Below, piece by piece: positions 5,541 to 52,788 of a stretch of 64,000 nucleotides of DNA. This DNA comes from a virus: positions 175,961-239,960 of the IMG/VR virus record IMGVR_UViG_3300028045_000001. One strand, given 5' to 3'. The translations under genes were made by a program, and so were the position numbers. The stretch's first letter is position 1. Every line of letters starts with the position of its first letter. The notes beneath the pieces were generated by a model. That model did not search any database, was not told the DNA's origin, and was given only the letters and a program-made list of their open reading frames with translations.

Positions 5541-5548
5541 TGTAATAC

Positions 5549-5578
5549 TTGGTATGGCATCCATGGATGCCATACCAA
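5549..5578 (+). terminator. Perfect 30-bp palindrome after helicase gene
   Basis: Fully self-complementary from 5549 to 5578. It runs directly into the promoter-like TATTATATAC and has no T-tract. Read as operon punctuation. Confidence 0.55.
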
Positions 5579-5588
5579 TATTATATAC
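5579..5588 (+). promoter_or_regulatory. Promoter-like TATTATATAC
   Basis: It lies 44 nt before the ATG of the virion gene at 5632, straight after a palindrome. The same core recurs at 17563, 27339, 40162, 42999 and 44763 at similar distances from start codons. Confidence 0.5.
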
Positions 5589-5631
5589 ACAACTTAATTT
5601 TTTCAAATAATTGTCACTAAAGGAGTTTCCT

Positions 5632-9605: not shown

Positions 9606-9618
9606 ATTTATATATTAC
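9606..9618 (+). promoter_or_regulatory. Promoter-like ATTTATATATTAC
   Basis: The 13-nt element is identical to 11101-11113 and 49392-49404, each time preceded by a pyrimidine-rich run. Its TATATTAC core is the motif I recall being reported for phiKZ early promoters. It probably drives the small accessory genes from 9675 or 9812 onward. Confidence 0.6.
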
Positions 9619-9674
9619 AGTAATGATATTAGAAATTACATTTTAAACAACTGTTCAAATGGAGAAAACTATTT

Positions 9675-9811: not shown

Positions 9812-10273
9812 ATGGATGCAATGGTGAATACTGTAAAAGAACTTTTGAAGGAGGCATTTGGCGACGATGTAAAATATAGCTTGCTGGTTATTGAGTCGGC
9901 GACTAAAAGAAAACTATCTGTAATTTCCAATTTATCCTCTACTTTTGAACTATCGACATTTAAAGGATTGATAAAGTTTATAGAAAGTAATACAGATGCA
10001 TGGGTAGACCATGTCAAATATATTAGAGGGATTGTAGCTCGCCCGGATACCGAGGACGCCATAGTCATGGGTCTATTAAAAACTGTGTTTAAAGGCAATA
10101 GCATTATATTAAATATATCGTCTTCGAAAAGTCCAAGCCGGACCATGTCTTATATGATCCCCGCACACACCGGGACCACAGTCCCACTGGAGGCAATATA
10201 CATTAGGGTACATGACCTAGAAGTAAGAGAGGCCGTTAGAAAAATAGAGAGCGGATCTGTCCCCATACATTAA
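9812..10273 (+). CDS. Hypothetical protein, 153 residues
   Basis: The start ATG 9812 is preceded by GAGGAGG. The protein appears soluble and mixed alpha/beta, without cysteine clusters, membrane segments or a known motif. It is the first sizeable gene after the promoter-like element at 9606 and is followed 16 nt later by another unknown gene. Its position suggests an early host-takeover product, but nothing in the sequence shows a function. Confidence 0.6.
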   Translation: MDAMVNTVKELLKEAFGDDVKYSLLVIESATKRKLSVISNLSSTFELSTFKGLIKFIESNTDAWVDHVKYIRGIVARPDTEDAIVMGLLKTVFKGNSIILNISSSKSPSRTMSYMIPAHTGTTVPLEAIYIRVHDLEVREAVRKIESGSVPIH

Positions 10274-10289
10274 AAAAGGAGAATTCGAT

Positions 10290-10727
10290 ATGCAAGTGGT
10301 AGTGATAACTGGCGAAATAAAAGAACGAATAGAAAAAGCTATAGAACTCGCATCTAACAACCCAAGAACAGTAGACGCTCTAACCAAGCTGATGGAATCA
10401 ACTGATGAGTTGCCAGATGATTTTCATGCAGAGTACACCGTACTTATACCAATGGGTATCTCGGTTACATATACCCACGATGAAGCGATGGAAGGGTTGA
10501 TGTGTAGACATATTTCAATTTGTGGTAACGTAAAAGAAAAAGTAGTTGATCCCCATACTGTAAAAATGATAATGGAGGAGTATGGATTCATCAATACCCA
10601 TGTAAACGACCCAGAGCACGAAAAACGCCCGATAGTTCGCTTGGAGTATAATGACTCTGGAGCTGGGATCATCCATGCCCTCGAACCATTAGATGGAGAT
10701 ATGAGTAAACTGCGAAAACAGGCGTAG
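10290..10727 (+). CDS. Hypothetical acidic protein, 145 residues
   Basis: AAAAGGAG precedes ATG 10290. The protein is acidic and alpha-beta, with scattered histidines but no clear metal motif. It probably shares a transcript with 9812-10273, and a 43-nt hairpin follows at 10741. Family unknown. Confidence 0.6.
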   Translation: MQVVVITGEIKERIEKAIELASNNPRTVDALTKLMESTDELPDDFHAEYTVLIPMGISVTYTHDEAMEGLMCRHISICGNVKEKVVDPHTVKMIMEEYGFINTHVNDPEHEKRPIVRLEYNDSGAGIIHALEPLDGDMSKLRKQA

Positions 10728-10740
10728 TATACATAGTCCA

Positions 10741-10783
10741 GTGCCTAACAAGTACATAGCAATGCTATGTACTTGTTAGGCAC
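10741..10783 (+). terminator. 20-bp inverted repeat
   Basis: Perfect 20-bp stem with a 3-nt loop, 13 nt after the stop of the preceding gene. No T-tract. Confidence 0.55.
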
Positions 10784-10814
10784 AACTGATTTATAAATTA
10801 TAGGACGGTGATAA

Positions 10815-11048
10815 ATGGATAGTTCATACAACGATGGATTCAAAGCTGGAGTTTTAAATGGAAGGGAACAAGTGCTTGAAAACATGAGAGAGATCGCCGC
10901 CACAATTGATGTCTGTAGGGCTTCCTCAAACTACATAGAAAAACAATTACACATTGGGCATTCGACTATGTACGACATATATGAATATAAATCAAATCTA
11001 TTGGATACCTTATTAAATAAAATAGATGGGATGATGGTGGACGACTAA
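10815..11048 (+). CDS. Small helical protein, 77 residues
   Basis: TAGGACGG lies upstream of ATG 10815. The protein is predicted largely helical, with an N-terminal aromatic and glycine patch and a central stretch that could form a short coiled coil. Function unknown. It stands between a hairpin and the promoter-like motif at 11101. Confidence 0.55.
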   Translation: MDSSYNDGFKAGVLNGREQVLENMREIAATIDVCRASSNYIEKQLHIGHSTMYDIYEYKSNLLDTLLNKIDGMMVDD

Positions 11049-11100: not shown

Positions 11101-11113
11101 ATTTATATATTAC
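11101..11113 (+). promoter_or_regulatory. Promoter-like ATTTATATATTAC
   Basis: Identical to the elements at 9606 and 49392. It lies 49 nt before the first zinc-knuckle gene and is the best candidate promoter for the 11162-15784 block, which contains no other obvious promoter or hairpin until 15784. Confidence 0.6.
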
Positions 11114-11161
11114 TACTATGTGTAAGGTATATGTATGTAGTTTTTAATATAGGAGAATAAT

Positions 11162-11353
11162 ATGGAAATATGTCAAGTCGATGGATGTAATAGAAAACAC
11201 TATGTCAAGGGCCATTGTGAAAAACACAATAAAGAAATGCAGATATGCGGCAGGATACTCCCAGTTATAAAGTGTAAGTTCGAAGGATGCGATGAAGAGC
11301 GTTTTAAGGAGGGGTACTGTCATGGATGCTACATGCGGATGTATAAACCATGA
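11162..11353 (+). CDS. Two-repeat CCCH zinc-knuckle protein
   Basis: A 63-residue protein, TAGGAG upstream of ATG 11162. It holds two copies of a CxxxxC...(K/E)G(H/Y)CxxH repeat; in the second the last ligand position is Cys (CHGC). The repeat resembles the small zinc-binding module found next to HNH endonuclease domains in phages, but no HNH domain is present. It probably binds nucleic acid or protein. It is the most diverged of the three adjacent array genes. Confidence 0.7.
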   Translation: MEICQVDGCNRKHYVKGHCEKHNKEMQICGRILPVIKCKFEGCDEERFKEGYCHGCYMRMYKP

Positions 11354-11378
11354 CAGAATAACATCATAGGAGAATAAT

Positions 11379-12164
11379 ATGAAAATATGTAAGGTTGATG
11401 GATGTGATAGAAAACACCATGCTAAAGGTTACTGTCACAAACATTATCTACAAATACAAAAATATGGCAAGATCCTGCCAGATAGAGTTATAACTGTTGG
11501 ATGTAAAGTCGATAGATGCGATGAAAAGCACCATGCTAAAGGATACTGTAGGAAACACTATCTACAAGTGCAACAACATGGCAAGACCATGTCTGATAGA
11601 GTTAAGCCAGTTGGATGTAAAGTCGATAGATGTGATGGAAAACGCTATGCTAAAGGGTATTGTAGTAGACACTATCGACAAGTGCATAAGCGTGACAAGA
11701 TCCTGCCAGATAGAGTTAAGCCCGTTGGATGTAAAGTCGATAGATGTGACGGAAAACACTATGCTAAAGGGTATTGTAGCAAACATTATCGCCGGATGAG
11801 AAGACATGGTAAGATTCTGCCAGATAGAGTCAAACCCGTTGGATGTACAGTCGATAGATGTAATGAAGAGCGTGTAGCTAAGGGGTATTGTCACAAACAC
11901 TATCATCAGATGCAGAGGAAGGGCAAGCTCCTGCCAGATAGAGTTGTTGGATGTAAAGTTGATGGATGTAAGGGAAAACACTATGCTAAAGGCCACTGTA
12001 GGAAACATTATCTACAAATGCATAGGTACGGTAAGATCCTACCAGATAAAGTCAAACACGTTGGATGTAAATTCAAAGGATGTGATGAAAAATACAAAGC
12101 CAAGGGCTATTGTAATACACATTACAATCAAATATGGCGACTTGGCAAGATCATAGGAGAATGA
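11379..12164 (+). CDS. Seven-repeat CCCH zinc-knuckle protein
   Basis: The 261 residues consist almost entirely of seven tandem repeats of about 38 residues. Each contains CxxxxC, then AKGYC or AKGHC, then HY after two residues, and ends in a basic GKxLPDRV linker. The ligand pattern (three Cys, one His) is complete in all seven copies. Linkers are nearly identical, so the array grew recently by tandem duplication. The protein is strongly basic, which suits nucleic-acid binding along a groove, but the target is unknown. The ATG at 11379 has TAGGAGAATAAT upstream, the same leader as the neighbouring array genes. Confidence 0.8.
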   Translation: MKICKVDGCDRKHHAKGYCHKHYLQIQKYGKILPDRVITVGCKVDRCDEKHHAKGYCRKHYLQVQQHGKTMSDRVKPVGCKVDRCDGKRYAKGYCSRHYRQVHKRDKILPDRVKPVGCKVDRCDGKHYAKGYCSKHYRRMRRHGKILPDRVKPVGCTVDRCNEERVAKGYCHKHYHQMQRKGKLLPDRVVGCKVDGCKGKHYAKGHCRKHYLQMHRYGKILPDKVKHVGCKFKGCDEKYKAKGYCNTHYNQIWRLGKIIGE

Positions 12165-12597
12165 TATGAAAATATGTAAAGTTAGCTGGTGTGATAGGGG
12201 GCGTGTAGCTAAGGGGTATTGCATTACACACTACCAACAAATGCGGAGGAAGGGGAAGCTCCTACCAGACGGACCCGCAGTATGTAAAGTCGATGGGTGC
12301 GATGGAAAGCACTATGCTAAAGGCTACTGTCAAAAACACTATCTACAAATGCATAAGCGTGGCAAGACCATGCCAGATAGAGTTGCTGAATGTCAAGTCG
12401 ATGGGTGTGATAGAAAACACCATGCTAAAGGGTATTGTAGTAGACACTATCGACAAGTGCAAAAACATGGCAAGACCATGTCTGATAGAGTTATAACTGT
12501 TGGATGTAAAGTTGATGGATGTAAGAGAAAATACTATGCTAAAGGCCACTGTAGTAAACACTATCTACAAATATGGAAGCATGGTGAGATCATAAAA
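11379..12597 (+). repeat. Tandem ~114-bp repeats coding for zinc knuckles
   Basis: Eleven head-to-tail units of roughly 114 bp (seven in one gene, four in the next) with long near-identical stretches. Such repeats can expand, contract or recombine between the two genes. Confidence 0.75.
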
Positions 12598-12600
12598 TAA
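12166..12600 (+). CDS. Four-repeat CCCH zinc-knuckle protein
   Basis: 144 residues with four tandem copies of the same CxxxxC...AKGYCxxHY repeat and GKxxPDRV linker as the gene 1 nt upstream. All ligands are present except that repeat 1 has a diverged SWC spacer (its cysteines remain). The preceding stop and this start are separated by one base, so translation is probably coupled. Stretches nearly identical at DNA level to 11379-12164 suggest duplication of part of that gene. Confidence 0.78.
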   Translation: MKICKVSWCDRGRVAKGYCITHYQQMRRKGKLLPDGPAVCKVDGCDGKHYAKGYCQKHYLQMHKRGKTMPDRVAECQVDGCDRKHHAKGYCSRHYRQVQKHGKTMSDRVITVGCKVDGCKRKYYAKGHCSKHYLQIWKHGEIIK

Positions 12601-12640: not shown

Positions 12641-13120
12641 ATGCACGAATGCATAGGTTCGTCTGTAATCCATGCGATGATGGCAGATGATGACTCGTAT
12701 ATAGCGCAGGAATTGTACGACTATTGCGCCTATAGTTTCGACAGAGATATTTATTTAGAAAGTGTCAATGAAAACTTCGAGATTATTCCTGGACTATTAA
12801 GAACCACTATGCGATCTGATACAGCCACCAATATGTATGTACTGACGGTGCACACTCTATGTGGATATGTGCTCACTATCCATACATCCAATAATTCGGG
12901 GTTACTTGATGCTTCTGGTGGGATCCTACAATTTAAAGACGTGTATATAGGTAAACACATATTGACATATTCTGGTGGATATGTTGGACCCGGTAGAATC
13001 CTCGACATCAAATGGGCTTGTTGCGCCATACCTTACTATGTGGACCTATACATGGACTACGGGATAAACTACCCCATTATTGATGGGGCAATAGTGCCAC
13101 CGATTAAATCAATTCTATAA
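12641..13120 (+). CDS. Degenerate Hint-like protein 1
   Basis: Start ATG 12641 rather than TTG 12635, because AGGAGG ends 9 nt upstream. The 159-residue protein follows the Hint (hedgehog/intein) order. It has a Cys near the N-terminus (MHEC), an acidic helix, an IYLESVNEN strand, a YVLTVHT strand, an IHTSNNS segment where inteins have TxxH, an IGKHIL turn, then a final PIIDGAIVP strand where inteins end NGIxVHN. The block-B His and the terminal Asn are absent, so splicing is unlikely. It is closest to the sixth member at 15275. The fold assignment is my inference from motif order. Confidence 0.6.
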   Translation: MHECIGSSVIHAMMADDDSYIAQELYDYCAYSFDRDIYLESVNENFEIIPGLLRTTMRSDTATNMYVLTVHTLCGYVLTIHTSNNSGLLDASGGILQFKDVYIGKHILTYSGGYVGPGRILDIKWACCAIPYYVDLYMDYGINYPIIDGAIVPPIKSIL

Positions 13121-13135
13121 GGGAGGACGAATAAC

Positions 13136-13657
13136 GTGACTCACTATGGTACAAAAGAGTCCAAAGTATATGGAACATTATTCGGCGAGAACGAGTACAC
13201 TCTTGAAGATCTATTCGAATACTACTACGTGAGTATGTATGAGACCGATGAGCTCCCATATGCATTCGAGGAACTCGATGTCCCGACGTACATAGACAGT
13301 GTTGACAACAGAGGCTATTTAGTGCCAGCAGCGCTGATGGATATGTACTATGTTGGCGATCACCACTTATGCTACAGGATAACTACACAAGCTAATAATT
13401 ACAATTGTAATATTATTTCAACTAAAACTTCCAGGGACAGTTATTTTGTAGGGGTAGGAGGAGAGCTATTGCACGTGAGCCAATTGCAACAAGGTACTTC
13501 GATATTGGTATGCCCATTCCCTCCAGATGGAAATTTGTCCATAGGAGTGATAAGCGATGTAACTATATTGCCTCCAGAAGAAATATATGGGATAGTATTA
13601 GAGGCCGATGTACAATACTACATCAAGGATGGGTTTGTAGTCCCATCGAACACATAA
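13136..13657 (+). CDS. Degenerate Hint-like protein 2
   Basis: GTG start at 13136 with GGGAGGA upstream. The 173 residues contain the most complete Hint-like series: YTLEDLFEYY helix, YIDSVDNRGYLVPA, LCYRITTQ, TKTSRDSYFVGVGGELLHVS, QLQQGTSIL, then IYGIVLEA and YYIKDGFVVPSN at the end. This mirrors intein blocks A, B, F and G, with TxxH changed to TxxS and the terminal HN changed to SN. The N-terminal nucleophile position holds no Cys. The chain ends one residue after the Asn, so there is no extein. Function unknown. Confidence 0.62.
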   Translation: MTHYGTKESKVYGTLFGENEYTLEDLFEYYYVSMYETDELPYAFEELDVPTYIDSVDNRGYLVPAALMDMYYVGDHHLCYRITTQANNYNCNIISTKTSRDSYFVGVGGELLHVSQLQQGTSILVCPFPPDGNLSIGVISDVTILPPEEIYGIVLEADVQYYIKDGFVVPSNT

Positions 13658-13673
13658 TAGTTGGAGAATAAAT

Positions 13674-14156
13674 ATGCACTATTGTACCATATGCGCAGAA
13701 GCAACATATGAAAATAGATGGTTATACACCATGTTTGATATAATTGAGATGCTTAAGCAACCGGACAGCTTATTAGTAGATGGAATAAATGCGAACGGAG
13801 AAACTATACTGACACCAGTACTCGGACTTAGTCCTGCTAAAGAAGCATCGTGCTACACCGTGGTAGCCAGAGTAGTACGTGGACTCACATATTCAATGGC
13901 GACGCGCACTTCTTCGGATAGTTATTTTGTTAAACTAGGTGGCGAACTAGTGGCAGTGACCCAACTTAAAGAAGGAGCAACTATATTGATGCATCCATAC
14001 ATGAATGCTTTGACGCCAGGGGTGGTCTTGAGTATTAGCGTAGACCAGATAAGAACAATGTGGGCATTAGAAGTAGACTATAAAACACCATATTACATTA
14101 AAGATGGGTTCGTAGTACCATCAAACAATATATTACAATTGGCCAACATGAGGTGA
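13674..14156 (+). CDS. Degenerate Hint-like protein 3
   Basis: TTGGAGAATAAAT precedes ATG 13674. 160 residues, starting MHYCT (Cys at position 4) and continuing with a long helix, an INANGETILTPVL strand pair, SSDSYFVKLGGELVAVTQL, KEGATIL, then ALEVDYKTPYYIKDGFVVPSN. The C-terminal strand is almost identical to that of the preceding gene, marking a duplication. The intein block-B histidine is replaced by serine. Same proposed Hint-like fold. Confidence 0.6.
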   Translation: MHYCTICAEATYENRWLYTMFDIIEMLKQPDSLLVDGINANGETILTPVLGLSPAKEASCYTVVARVVRGLTYSMATRTSSDSYFVKLGGELVAVTQLKEGATILMHPYMNALTPGVVLSISVDQIRTMWALEVDYKTPYYIKDGFVVPSNNILQLANMR

Positions 14157-14160
14157 TTGA

Positions 14161-14685
14161 ATGTACTATTTATCTGAATGTGAATATTTTCTTCATAGGA
14201 GCAAACGATACGATCTGCCCGAACTAAGTAAACAGACCGAATGTGGCACCATGCCTTCAATACAATTGCTCTCTATTAATAACAATGGTGGATTCCAAAT
14301 AGCCAATATACTGAGTGTGAATCAACTCAGTTACATAGATATACGCTACTTCGTTGCGGTTAGATCGCCTATATGTGAACATGGTCGTAGGGTAGATGAC
14401 ATATTCGCATTGAATGCTGCGCCCAACACTACATTTATTAAATTGGGAGGAGAGCCAATAAGAGCATCTCAATTAAAGAAGGGCCTCGCTATACTAATGT
14501 GTTCTCCGGAATTACAAGTAATAGAGGGGTCTGCTGCTAATGTGGGATACGGTGTGGTGGAGTCTATAACTGAATTACGCGATAGTAACATTTATGGCGT
14601 GGAACTTGAAGCTGACGATATCGCATACAACATTAAGAATAATTTCATTATTGCCAATGCTATGGCCATACAGGCGCTTAACTAA
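14161..14685 (+). CDS. Degenerate Hint-like protein 4
   Basis: Starts 4 nt after the previous stop, with the GAGGTGA of that gene's end as ribosome site. 174 residues. The array signature is present as TTFIKLGGEPIRASQLKKGLAIL, then IYGVELEADDIAYNIKNNFIIAN. It is more diverged at the N-terminus (MYYLSEC) and the terminal PSN is IAN. Same family by order of motifs and length. Confidence 0.58.
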   Translation: MYYLSECEYFLHRSKRYDLPELSKQTECGTMPSIQLLSINNNGGFQIANILSVNQLSYIDIRYFVAVRSPICEHGRRVDDIFALNAAPNTTFIKLGGEPIRASQLKKGLAILMCSPELQVIEGSAANVGYGVVESITELRDSNIYGVELEADDIAYNIKNNFIIANAMAIQALN

Positions 14686-14700
14686 TTTGGGGATTTATAA

Positions 14701-15267
14701 ATGTATTACGGAACAGAAGATACTTATGTACATTACAATGGATTAGATGTCACTCTATCAGAACTACATGACCGCAATATGGTCAATGATAGTGGGGGAA
14801 GGCCTATGTCCATTTACGGCATAAGCAAGTACGGCAATCTAATGGCCGCTAATATAGTAGCGACACAGTACGTTGGCGAGCTAATGTGCCGTACGGTGAC
14901 TGCAGTACCTAACGGATATCTTGGTGAAACATGCAGAATAACTATCGCCCATTACAGTTACTTTGTTGGAATTGGGGGACAGTTAATAAAAAGTGCACAG
15001 TTACAAAAAGGCGCGACAGTTGCAGTGTTCCCAAACTACATGTACCTGCCACATGTCCCAAAGAACTTGTGTCGATTTATAACACCTGGAAGAATATCCC
15101 ACATAAGTAAAACATCCATTAAAAAGATATACTGCTTAGCACCATCGACATATATCCCAGTTTTAATTGATAGTGGATTCATCACTTCCCACGACCAATG
15201 GGAGTACTGCAGGGCCTTCCAACAATCACCAATCTACAAAAGAATACAACTTATTGGAAAGGATTAA
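14701..15267 (+). CDS. Degenerate Hint-like protein 5
   Basis: 188 residues, preceded by GGGGATTTATAA. It has MYYGTED at the N-terminus, the HYSYFVGIGGQLIKSAQL and QKGATVAVF segments, then a diverged C-terminal strand (IPVLIDSGFITSHDQ) and an extra 20-residue tail. It lacks the C-terminal PSN. Of the six array members it has drifted furthest in the last third. Confidence 0.55.
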   Translation: MYYGTEDTYVHYNGLDVTLSELHDRNMVNDSGGRPMSIYGISKYGNLMAANIVATQYVGELMCRTVTAVPNGYLGETCRITIAHYSYFVGIGGQLIKSAQLQKGATVAVFPNYMYLPHVPKNLCRFITPGRISHISKTSIKKIYCLAPSTYIPVLIDSGFITSHDQWEYCRAFQQSPIYKRIQLIGKD

Positions 15268-15274
15268 TAAATAT

Positions 15275-15784
15275 ATGTATATGTGCACAAAGGAATCAGT
15301 CGTATATGCAATGGCCCGTGGGGATGGAGCTTACGTGGCATGTAATCTTTTTGACTCGCACAATTGGGACATCAATGAGGGCATATTTATTGAGAGTATA
15401 GACAATGAGTTTGCTCCGATGCCATCTCTGTTGTATGGGATAATAAAGACCGGCAATAAAAGCATATTTTGTGTTGAGATACTCACTGCATCAAAGGTTG
15501 ACATTACGATACACATGTCTATAGACTCATGTTTAATTGATCTCTGTGGAGGTATAATAAAACCTATAAATGTATCTATTGGTAAACATGTGCTAACATT
15601 TAAAGGCACCGTTATTGAACCGGGCGTAATAACTAACATCACGCGGTCCGAGGCAACGATGACATATTGTTTAGATCTGCACTTGGGTGAGGATACCGAA
15701 GAATATGTATGTTATCCGGTGATAGATGGTGTAGTGGTCCCAGCATTTAATCATAGGGATGCATCCAGCAGGGTAGACTTTTAG
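15275..15784 (+). CDS. Degenerate Hint-like protein 6
   Basis: A longer frame opens at 15167 inside the preceding gene, but ATG 15275 lies 8 nt after that gene's stop and gives the family N-terminus MYMCT (Cys at position 4). The 169 residues show IFIESIDNE, FCVEILT, IHMSIDSCLIDLCGG, IGKHVL and a closing PVIDGVVVPAFN. It pairs with the first array gene. The final Asn is kept but the preceding His is Phe. A strong bidirectional hairpin overlaps the stop codon. Confidence 0.58.
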   Translation: MYMCTKESVVYAMARGDGAYVACNLFDSHNWDINEGIFIESIDNEFAPMPSLLYGIIKTGNKSIFCVEILTASKVDITIHMSIDSCLIDLCGGIIKPINVSIGKHVLTFKGTVIEPGVITNITRSEATMTYCLDLHLGEDTEEYVCYPVIDGVVVPAFNHRDASSRVDF

Positions 15785-15823
15785 CACTCCGATACTGTCC
15801 ACTGATGGACAGTATCGGAGTGC
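15784..15823. terminator. Bidirectional terminator between convergent genes
   Basis: Perfect 18-bp stem with a 4-nt loop, followed on the plus strand by a run of eight T (15830-15837). It lies between the end of the Hint-like array and the end of the minus-strand beta-prime gene, so it can serve both. It is one of only two hairpins in the window followed by a T-run. Confidence 0.75.
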
Positions 15824-27290: not shown

Positions 27291-27291
27291 C

Positions 27292-27323
27292 TTATAGTCT
27301 GCCCTACGTAGGGCAGACTATAA
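27292..27323 (+). terminator. Perfect 32-bp palindrome
   Basis: Fully self-complementary from 27292 to 27323, 2 nt after the stop codon; an A-run rather than a T-run follows on the plus strand. Confidence 0.55.
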
Positions 27324-27338
27324 AAAATACAATAATGA

Positions 27339-27348
27339 TATTATATAT
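27339..27348 (+). promoter_or_regulatory. Promoter-like TATTATATAT
   Basis: It lies 51 nt before the beta-like gene and 15 nt after a palindrome, the same arrangement as at 40162, 42999 and 44763. Confidence 0.5.
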
Positions 27349-27398
27349 CAAAAGAATTCTTAAATCAAATGTATAACTTTTTTAATTGAGAGGTTGCA

Positions 27399-40072: not shown

Positions 40073-40111
40073 TCGGTACAACTGTATTTAAAGTTAAATT
40101 ATTTTTACATC

Positions 40112-40145
40112 ATGAGGAAGTTCTCCTGTAGGAGAACTTCCTCAT
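40112..40145 (+). terminator. 16-bp inverted repeat
   Basis: Perfect 16-bp stem, 2-nt loop, 40 nt after the stop of the 1697-residue gene, no T-tract. Confidence 0.55.
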
Positions 40146-40161
40146 TAATAATGTTTTAAGA

Positions 40162-40171
40162 TATTATATAC
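40162..40171 (+). promoter_or_regulatory. Promoter-like TATTATATAC
   Basis: It lies 16 nt after the hairpin and 41 nt before ATG 40212. Confidence 0.5.
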
Positions 40172-40211
40172 AACTAATTCAATATTATTAAGTTATCTAT
40201 GAGGTGAGATT

Positions 40212-42950: not shown

Positions 42951-42962
42951 TAAAAAGCAAGC

Positions 42963-42996
42963 CATATGTCCCTTCTCATATGAGAAGGGACATATG
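42963..42996 (+). terminator. Perfect 34-bp palindrome
   Basis: Fully self-complementary, 12 nt after the preceding stop codon, no T-tract. Confidence 0.55.
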
Positions 42997-42998
42997 AA

Positions 42999-43008
42999 TA
43001 TTATATAA
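42999..43008 (+). promoter_or_regulatory. Promoter-like TATTATATAA
   Basis: It begins 2 nt after the palindrome and ends 42 nt before ATG 43050. Confidence 0.5.
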
Positions 43009-43049
43009 CTAAAAAAAGACAAATCCTTAAAATAAGAGAAGGTGAGAGT

Positions 43050-44692: not shown

Positions 44693-44710
44693 TACCTCCA
44701 CATAATATAC

Positions 44711-44752
44711 TTCTATGGCCCACTCCTTTTATAAAAGGAGTGGGCCATAGAA
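44711..44752 (+). terminator. Perfect 42-bp palindrome
   Basis: The longest uninterrupted palindrome in the window, 18 nt after the stop codon, with no T-tract. Confidence 0.58.
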
Positions 44753-44762
44753 TACTATAGGC

Positions 44763-44772
44763 TATTATATAA
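44763..44772 (+). promoter_or_regulatory. Promoter-like TATTATATAA
   Basis: It ends 33 nt before ATG 44805 and begins 11 nt after the palindrome. Confidence 0.5.
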
Positions 44773-44804
44773 CTAAACAAACTTTTCATTACAGGTGATA
44801 AACT

Positions 44805-52718: not shown

Positions 52719-52722
52719 GACC

Positions 52723-52764
52723 ACACTTAGACGCTGATAGGATGTCCTATCAGCGTCTAAGTGT
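52723..52764 (+). terminator. 20-bp inverted repeat
   Basis: Perfect 20-bp stem, 2-nt loop, 4 nt after the stop codon, no T-tract. AATATAATTATAA follows and may be the next promoter. Confidence 0.55.
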
Positions 52765-52788
52765 AATATAATTATAAAGGAGATGAAA

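Follow-up and report, generated by a model that had tools for sequence, protein, structure and literature searches.

The virus record IMGVR_UViG_3300028045_000001 of IMG/VR comprises 239,960 bases, and its positions 175961-239960 (64,000 nucleotides, referred to as the window) were analysed with respect to a tandem array of six genes predicted to encode stand-alone proteins of the Hint fold. The six open reading frames (ORFs) are intact and lie head to tail at positions 12641-15784 of the window (159-188 codons), with intergenic gaps of 4-16 nucleotides, and each is preceded by a purine-rich Shine-Dalgarno-like stretch, which is weakest for copies 5 and 6. The window also contains split RNA polymerase beta/beta' genes together with tail and head genes related to those of phiKZ-type jumbo phages, on the basis of which the virus was assigned to the phiKZ-like jumbo phages; as the RNA polymerase fragments show at most about 32% identity to the best phages among the matches listed, it represents a deeply separate lineage. 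The features of the locus, along with two further Hint or Hint-like genes found elsewhere, are given in Table 1.

Table 1. Features of the Hint-like array, its predicted operon and further Hint genes (window positions unless stated otherwise; contig positions refer to the whole record).
Feature	Position (strand)	Length	Description	Basis
Second early-promoter copy	9607..9625 (+)		TTTATATATTAC-AGTAAT-G, before the preceding small genes 9812-11048	
phiKZ-type early promoter	11102..11120 (+)		TTTATATATTAC-TACTAT-G(+1), predicted operon start	Exact core match
Zinc-knuckle protein	11162..11353 (+)	63 amino acids	First gene of predicted early operon	ORF, promoter distance, repeat unit
Tandem zinc-knuckle array protein	11379..12164 (+)	261 amino acids	HNH-associated module without HNH nuclease	PHROG 5351, E 1e-73; 114-nucleotide repeats
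Tandem zinc-knuckle array protein	12166..12600 (+)	144 amino acids		PHROG 5351, E 1e-34; repeats
Hint-like copy 1	12641..13120 (+)	159 amino acids	Cys1 kept; block B S-N-N-S; end DGAIVPP	AlphaFold2 and Foldseek
Hint-like copy 2	13136..13657 (+)	173 amino acids	GTG start; Gly at Cys1; block B S-R-D-S; end DGFVVPSNT	AlphaFold2 and Foldseek
Hint-like copy 3	13674..14156 (+)	160 amino acids	Cys1 kept; block B S-S-D-S; end DGFVVPSN plus tail	Alignment; six-copy profile, E 1e-58
Hint-like copy 4	14161..14685 (+)	174 amino acids	Leu at Cys1; block B A-P-N-T; end NNFIIAN plus tail	Alignment; profile, E 2e-47
Hint-like copy 5	14701..15267 (+)	188 amino acids	Gly at Cys1; block B A-H-Y-S; end SGFITSH plus tail	Alignment; profile, E 3e-51
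Hint-like copy 6	15275..15784 (+)	169 amino acids	Cys1 kept; block B S-I-D-S; end DGVVVPA plus tail	Alignment with copy 1; profile, E 4e-65
Intrinsic terminator	15784..15823 (+)		18-bp stem, 4-nucleotide loop, T-rich tail; directly after copy 6, closes operon	
Seventh Hint-like gene	contig 133386-133883 (stretch L063:150-647)	165 amino acids	Stand-alone, outside the window	Profile match
Stand-alone Hint protein, Lactobacillus phage P1	61821-62249 of that phage	143 amino acids	Annotated as hypothetical protein	

The six ORFs were found to be mutually homologous, with identities to copy 1 of 14-32% (32% for copy 6 and approximately 22% for copy 2), and they fall into two subgroups, one of copies 1 and 6 and one of copies 2-5. 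A search with the single sequence of copy 2 matched copies 3, 4 and 5 at E-values of 9e-17 to 5e-9, well above chance, while a profile of all six recovered every copy (E 2e-47 to 1e-66), although the copies themselves had built that profile, which is hence no independent test. Terminal branches in the six-copy comparison measured 0.6-2.6 changes per site, and core glycines and motifs are conserved across all six. The sequence comparisons thus showed the genes to be of common ancestry; a preliminary description of this DNA had listed six consecutive genes with shared motifs, and both the intact ORFs and the motifs proved to be real.

The same description had claimed a Hint fold and had proposed structure prediction followed by a fold search. 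Structures of copies 1 and 2 were predicted with AlphaFold2 using the six-sequence alignment as input (predicted local distance difference test scores of 82.1 and 82.3, predicted template modelling (TM) scores of 0.77 and 0.78, respectively), and the Hint fold was extended to copies 3-6 by homology. When both models were searched against the PDB using Foldseek, the best 50 matches of each were all Hint domains, which bears out the claim for the two modelled copies; inteins ranked first, followed by hedgehog and by bacterial and ciliate intein-like domains. The best match was 8ubs (E 1.1e-7 for copy 1 and 5.3e-8 for copy 2), TM scores normalised by query were mostly 0.6-0.75, and identity to solved Hint domains was 7-18% among the matches listed. 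Among predicted viral proteins, the best structural matches included terminases and polymerases, in which the Hint match is most likely to an intein, and a few short stand-alone proteins labelled 'Hint module' or uncharacterised. Computation thus showed a Hint fold to be the predicted structure shared by the six array proteins.

Similarity to Hint domains, which the earlier description had also supposed, was detected in sequence profiles. Five of eight matches of the six-copy profile among PDB sequences were inteins, those to Npu DnaE inteins (E 0.15-0.43) running in order over 110-120 residues, and two of the matches being colinear over about 110 residues; a profile of copies 2-5 matched only DnaE inteins using hmmsearch (four of four matches, E 0.3-1.4), and DnaE-type inteins again ranked first for a profile that included a seventh member (see below). 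An hhalign comparison of a profile of four phage inteins with the six copies scored 32.9; none of 150 column-shuffled profiles exceeded 16.9, and the reversed alignment gave 13.1. When the phage-intein profile was run against 263 ORFs of this phage (those of the window and of stretches near early promoters), the first three ranks were taken in turn by copy 2, the seventh member and copy 4. Scans of the six copies with Pfam, PHROGs, PADLOC and NCBIfam returned nothing meaningful, including no Pfam Hint match, and no Pfam intein or PT-HINT match was found anywhere in the record. A search of the rest of the contig for a canonical intein from which the array might have come found none.

Both the Npu DnaE and the phage-intein profile alignments placed the motif S-x-D/N-S on the T-x-N/D-H of block B, and the block B histidine is therefore predicted to be replaced by serine in five copies and by threonine in copy 4; S-x-[D/N]-S itself occurs at block B in four copies. 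The C-terminal DGFVVP[S] aligned on NGFIVH[N] of inteins, so placing proline (copies 1, 2, 3 and 6), alanine (copy 4) or serine (copy 5) at the penultimate histidine, while copy 4 alone has the terminal asparagine in register, copies 2 and 3 having it shifted by one residue towards the C terminus. At the Cys1 position, the register of which is uncertain by 1-2 residues, copies 1, 3 and 6 have cysteine, copies 2 and 5 glycine and copy 4 leucine. The full catalytic set is present in none of the six copies. The genes are free-standing and lack exteins, with 3-4 residues before position 1 and a short or no tail after block G; neither the signal domain nor the sterol-recognition region of hedgehog Hog proteins is present, as little or nothing follows the Hint domain in these proteins. 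The preliminary description had held that the catalytic histidine, often Cys1, and the final His-Asn were lost and that there were no exteins, and on each of these points it agrees with the alignments: the catalytic histidine is gone from all six (its block B position being refined here to S-x-D/N-S), Cys1 is absent from three of six, the penultimate histidine is missing from all six with asparagine in register in copy 4 only, and the genes stand free. These alignments support a loss of the residues needed to splice, and since the same replacements recur across copies (the block B serine motif and proline for the penultimate histidine), that loss probably preceded duplication.

A further Hint-like gene was identified outside the window, approximately 55 kb from the array, with an early promoter directly before it at contig position 133337. 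Run against 472 ORFs, the six-copy profile matched its product at E 3.8e-4 (the next ORF scored 0.33); the product aligned over 138 columns by hhalign, and its end (..NDFLIPS..) resembles the DGFVVPS of the array; a search of the whole record with the same profile gave no further copy at E<=10. As this gene has its own early promoter, the phage probably uses the Hint fold at least twice in its early genes. An RNA polymerase gene (stretch L073:112-1047) was found close to it.

The sequence TTTATATATTAC occurs exactly 18 times on the forward strand of the 240-kb record, never on the reverse strand and never in a reversed control. In the 18 aligned sites it is preceded by a T-rich stretch, and after the core, position 5 is A in 18/18, position 6 is T in 16/18 and position 7 is a purine in 18/18 (14 G, 4 A). 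The early promoter of phiKZ is TATATTAC (PMC7058600), and in the phiKZ group the start site lies 6 nucleotides downstream of the AT-rich element (PMC5312081); the layout of TTTATATATTAC, six nucleotides and a purine matches these early promoters. Sites in the window are at 9607, 11102 and 49393. No terminator-like site was predicted on the + strand between 11102 and 15784, and because the promoter at 11102 is followed by the next + strand terminator at 15784-15823, the simplest reading is a single early transcription unit, in which the zinc-knuckle genes and the six Hint genes probably form one early operon. A promoter-like motif upstream of the array had been noted in the preliminary description; it exists and is of the phiKZ early type, but it lies 1.5 kb upstream of copy 1 and not directly before it. 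Sigma-70 promoters were no more frequent than chance would give (30 against 34 expected), and a guessed second motif, ATTATATAACTAA, did not clearly exceed chance within the window and was rejected.

The zinc-knuckle genes (11162-12600) encode about ten tandem repeats of 38 amino acids in three genes. These match the N-terminal region of HNH endonuclease families of phages, but no nuclease is present; the best PHROG 5351 stretch of the 261-amino-acid protein covers profile positions 6-79 of 171. Genome-wide, the arrangement of TTTATATATTAC, six nucleotides and a purine on the + strand is usable for listing the early genes of this phage. Two paralogous early-promoter genes (stretch L074:1629-3878 and L074:5198-6349, contig about 149-154 kb) encode proteins of 749 and 383 amino acids built of DUF285 repeats, a family named from Mycoplasma, and represent another expanded family in the early regions. 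Long near-perfect hairpins were observed 3' of many window genes (for example at 1646-1709, 5541-5610, 27291-27398, 40073-40211, 42951-43049, 44693-44804 and 52719-52782) and make up a regular set, probably of terminators or processing sites; many of them lack a long T tail.

On balance, it seems probable, though by a modest measure, that the array encodes stand-alone Hint-fold proteins descended from an intein-like ancestor, which have lost splicing, belong to an early operon and act by non-catalytic binding. An intein-like domain would have lost its splicing chemistry, probably before the array arose, and tandem duplication would then have produced the six genes. Transcription by the virion RNA polymerase as one early operon, from the promoter to the terminator, is supported by the predicted signals. 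The proteins may act without catalysis, as small binding proteins made early, with the conserved core and the remodelled former active site keeping the fold and the divergent loops and tails binding a different partner in each copy; the partners would most likely be host factors or defence components at the start of infection. The evidence for an early promoter and operon makes more plausible the earlier idea of a binding or host-interaction module. A wider proposal is put forward tentatively, at somewhat short of even chances: the phage would have converted the Hint autoprocessing fold to a binding scaffold that exists in several copies, lacks catalysis and is produced within minutes of the start of infection, its seven diverged paralogues each being directed at a different host or defence target. 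Several points weigh against the main interpretation. None of the PDB profile matches is significant by itself (the lowest intein E-value being 0.15), the two AlphaFold2 runs share one six-sequence alignment and so are not fully independent, copies 3-6 are placed by homology, and the assignment of the block A active site is uncertain by 1-2 residues. Early timing is read from the promoter motif, divergence among the copies is too great for a test of selection by the ratio of nonsynonymous to synonymous changes (dN/dS), and binding, partners and a host-directed role are matters of inference.

Descent from selfish homing elements could account for both parts of the operon, the zinc-knuckle arrays being remnants of HNH endonucleases and the Hint domains remnants of inteins without present function; the matches of the neighbouring genes are to the N-terminal region of HNH endonuclease families, with the nuclease absent, and the Hint copies lack exteins and an endonuclease domain. 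This was judged unlikely, as six intact ORFs have kept core glycines and motifs through very deep divergence (0.6-2.6 changes per site), the promoter match is strict and accompanied by a terminator, and the seventh member lies elsewhere behind an early promoter of its own. It is also quite unlikely that Hint chemistry persists in part, with copies 1, 3 and 6 using Cys1 to carry out an N-S acyl shift, form a thioester or cleave a peptide bond, and serving as small autoproteases or acyl carriers. Such activity would fit the cysteine at residue 4 of these copies and a Ser-Asn close to the C terminus of copies 2 and 3, similar to the Ser-Asn with which the Npu DnaE intein ends, but the block B histidine is serine or threonine in all six, the block F/G histidines are absent, the other three copies have glycine or leucine at Cys1, and no N-extein beyond 3-4 residues is available for cleavage.

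The abundance of virion and RNA polymerase genes on both sides of the array in the window raises a role in the virion or its assembly, in which the proteins would be structural or chaperone-like parts (inner body, tail or capsid) encoded in a mixed region. The predicted early promoter and separate terminator isolate the operon from the adjoining structural genes, however, and no PHROG structural family was matched, making such a role improbable. An all-beta fold reached by convergence, sharing no ancestry with inteins, would be consistent with the 7-18% identity to solved Hint domains among the matches listed; it is rendered very improbable by the order of the blocks and a profile similarity over the sequence that exceed all shuffles, together with PDB profile matches that are mostly inteins. 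Descent from an intein-like ancestor with loss of splicing, followed by non-catalytic binding, is the best-supported interpretation.

To our knowledge, autocatalytic processing is almost the only role known for Hint domains. If the interpretation is correct, paralogues that retain the fold but not the chemistry, and that stand behind an early promoter, would clearly exemplify reuse of the protein-splicing fold for another purpose, and the array would supply small expressible proteins as candidate host-takeover or anti-defence factors. Standard annotation (Pfam, PHROGs, NCBIfam and PADLOC) misses such Hint-fold proteins entirely.

Relatives of the array were sought by scans of viral contigs (some of them with RNA polymerase genes), by a GTDB scan and by tblastn of phages with copies 2, 5 and 6 and the seventh member. 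No sequence relative was found in the viral contig, phage or GTDB collections by these scans, which find close relatives best. A profile built from the copies gave no true relative over 18 phage records including phiKZ, SPN3US, AR9 and Noxifer, a result which shows little without a positive control; an intein family profile does give matches in the same 18 records. A weak DCYFVAVGGELIVTN match in L049 was inspected and judged to be chance. No description of the Hint fold as the expanded unit of a phage tandem array was found in the literature. The preliminary description knew of no array like this one, which stands as far as the collection and literature searches go, but single stand-alone degenerate Hint proteins do occur in other phages.

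Those cases are found in Lactobacillus phages P1, P2, Maenad and Satyr, each with one free-standing Hint protein, and degenerate stand-alone Hint proteins therefore occur elsewhere. As in the array, the P1 protein is free-standing and has Cys1, the block B histidine and the terminal asparagine replaced (G-F-A-A-G, T-G-N-Q and V-H-D); unlike the array, it is a single gene, is weakly recognised by Pfam Hint models and keeps the penultimate histidine, and it is not reached by the six-copy profile. Mini-inteins (NrdJ-1, Mtu RecA and the Npu DnaB/DnaE splicing domains) share with the array proteins the fold over nearly the whole chain, the block order, a length of approximately 140-175 amino acids and the lack of an endonuclease domain, but the array has no exteins or host gene, lacks the block B and G histidines, keeps Cys1 in three of six copies and carries its paralogues side by side. 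The hedgehog Hog/Hint domain (1at0, 6tyy) has the same fold (E 4.5e-5 to 1.3e-4), while the array proteins are without a signalling domain, a sterol-recognition region and the catalytic histidine. Bacterial intein-like (BIL) domains (2lwy, 6y75) likewise have the same fold by Foldseek; they sit within larger proteins and keep their catalytic residues. Expansion of single genes into tandem paralogue arrays is a feature of jumbo phages, as reviewed (PMC13282480), and the present array resembles these in that one gene was expanded, but differs in having the Hint fold as its unit. What is new here is the tandem expansion and its predicted placement in an early operon.

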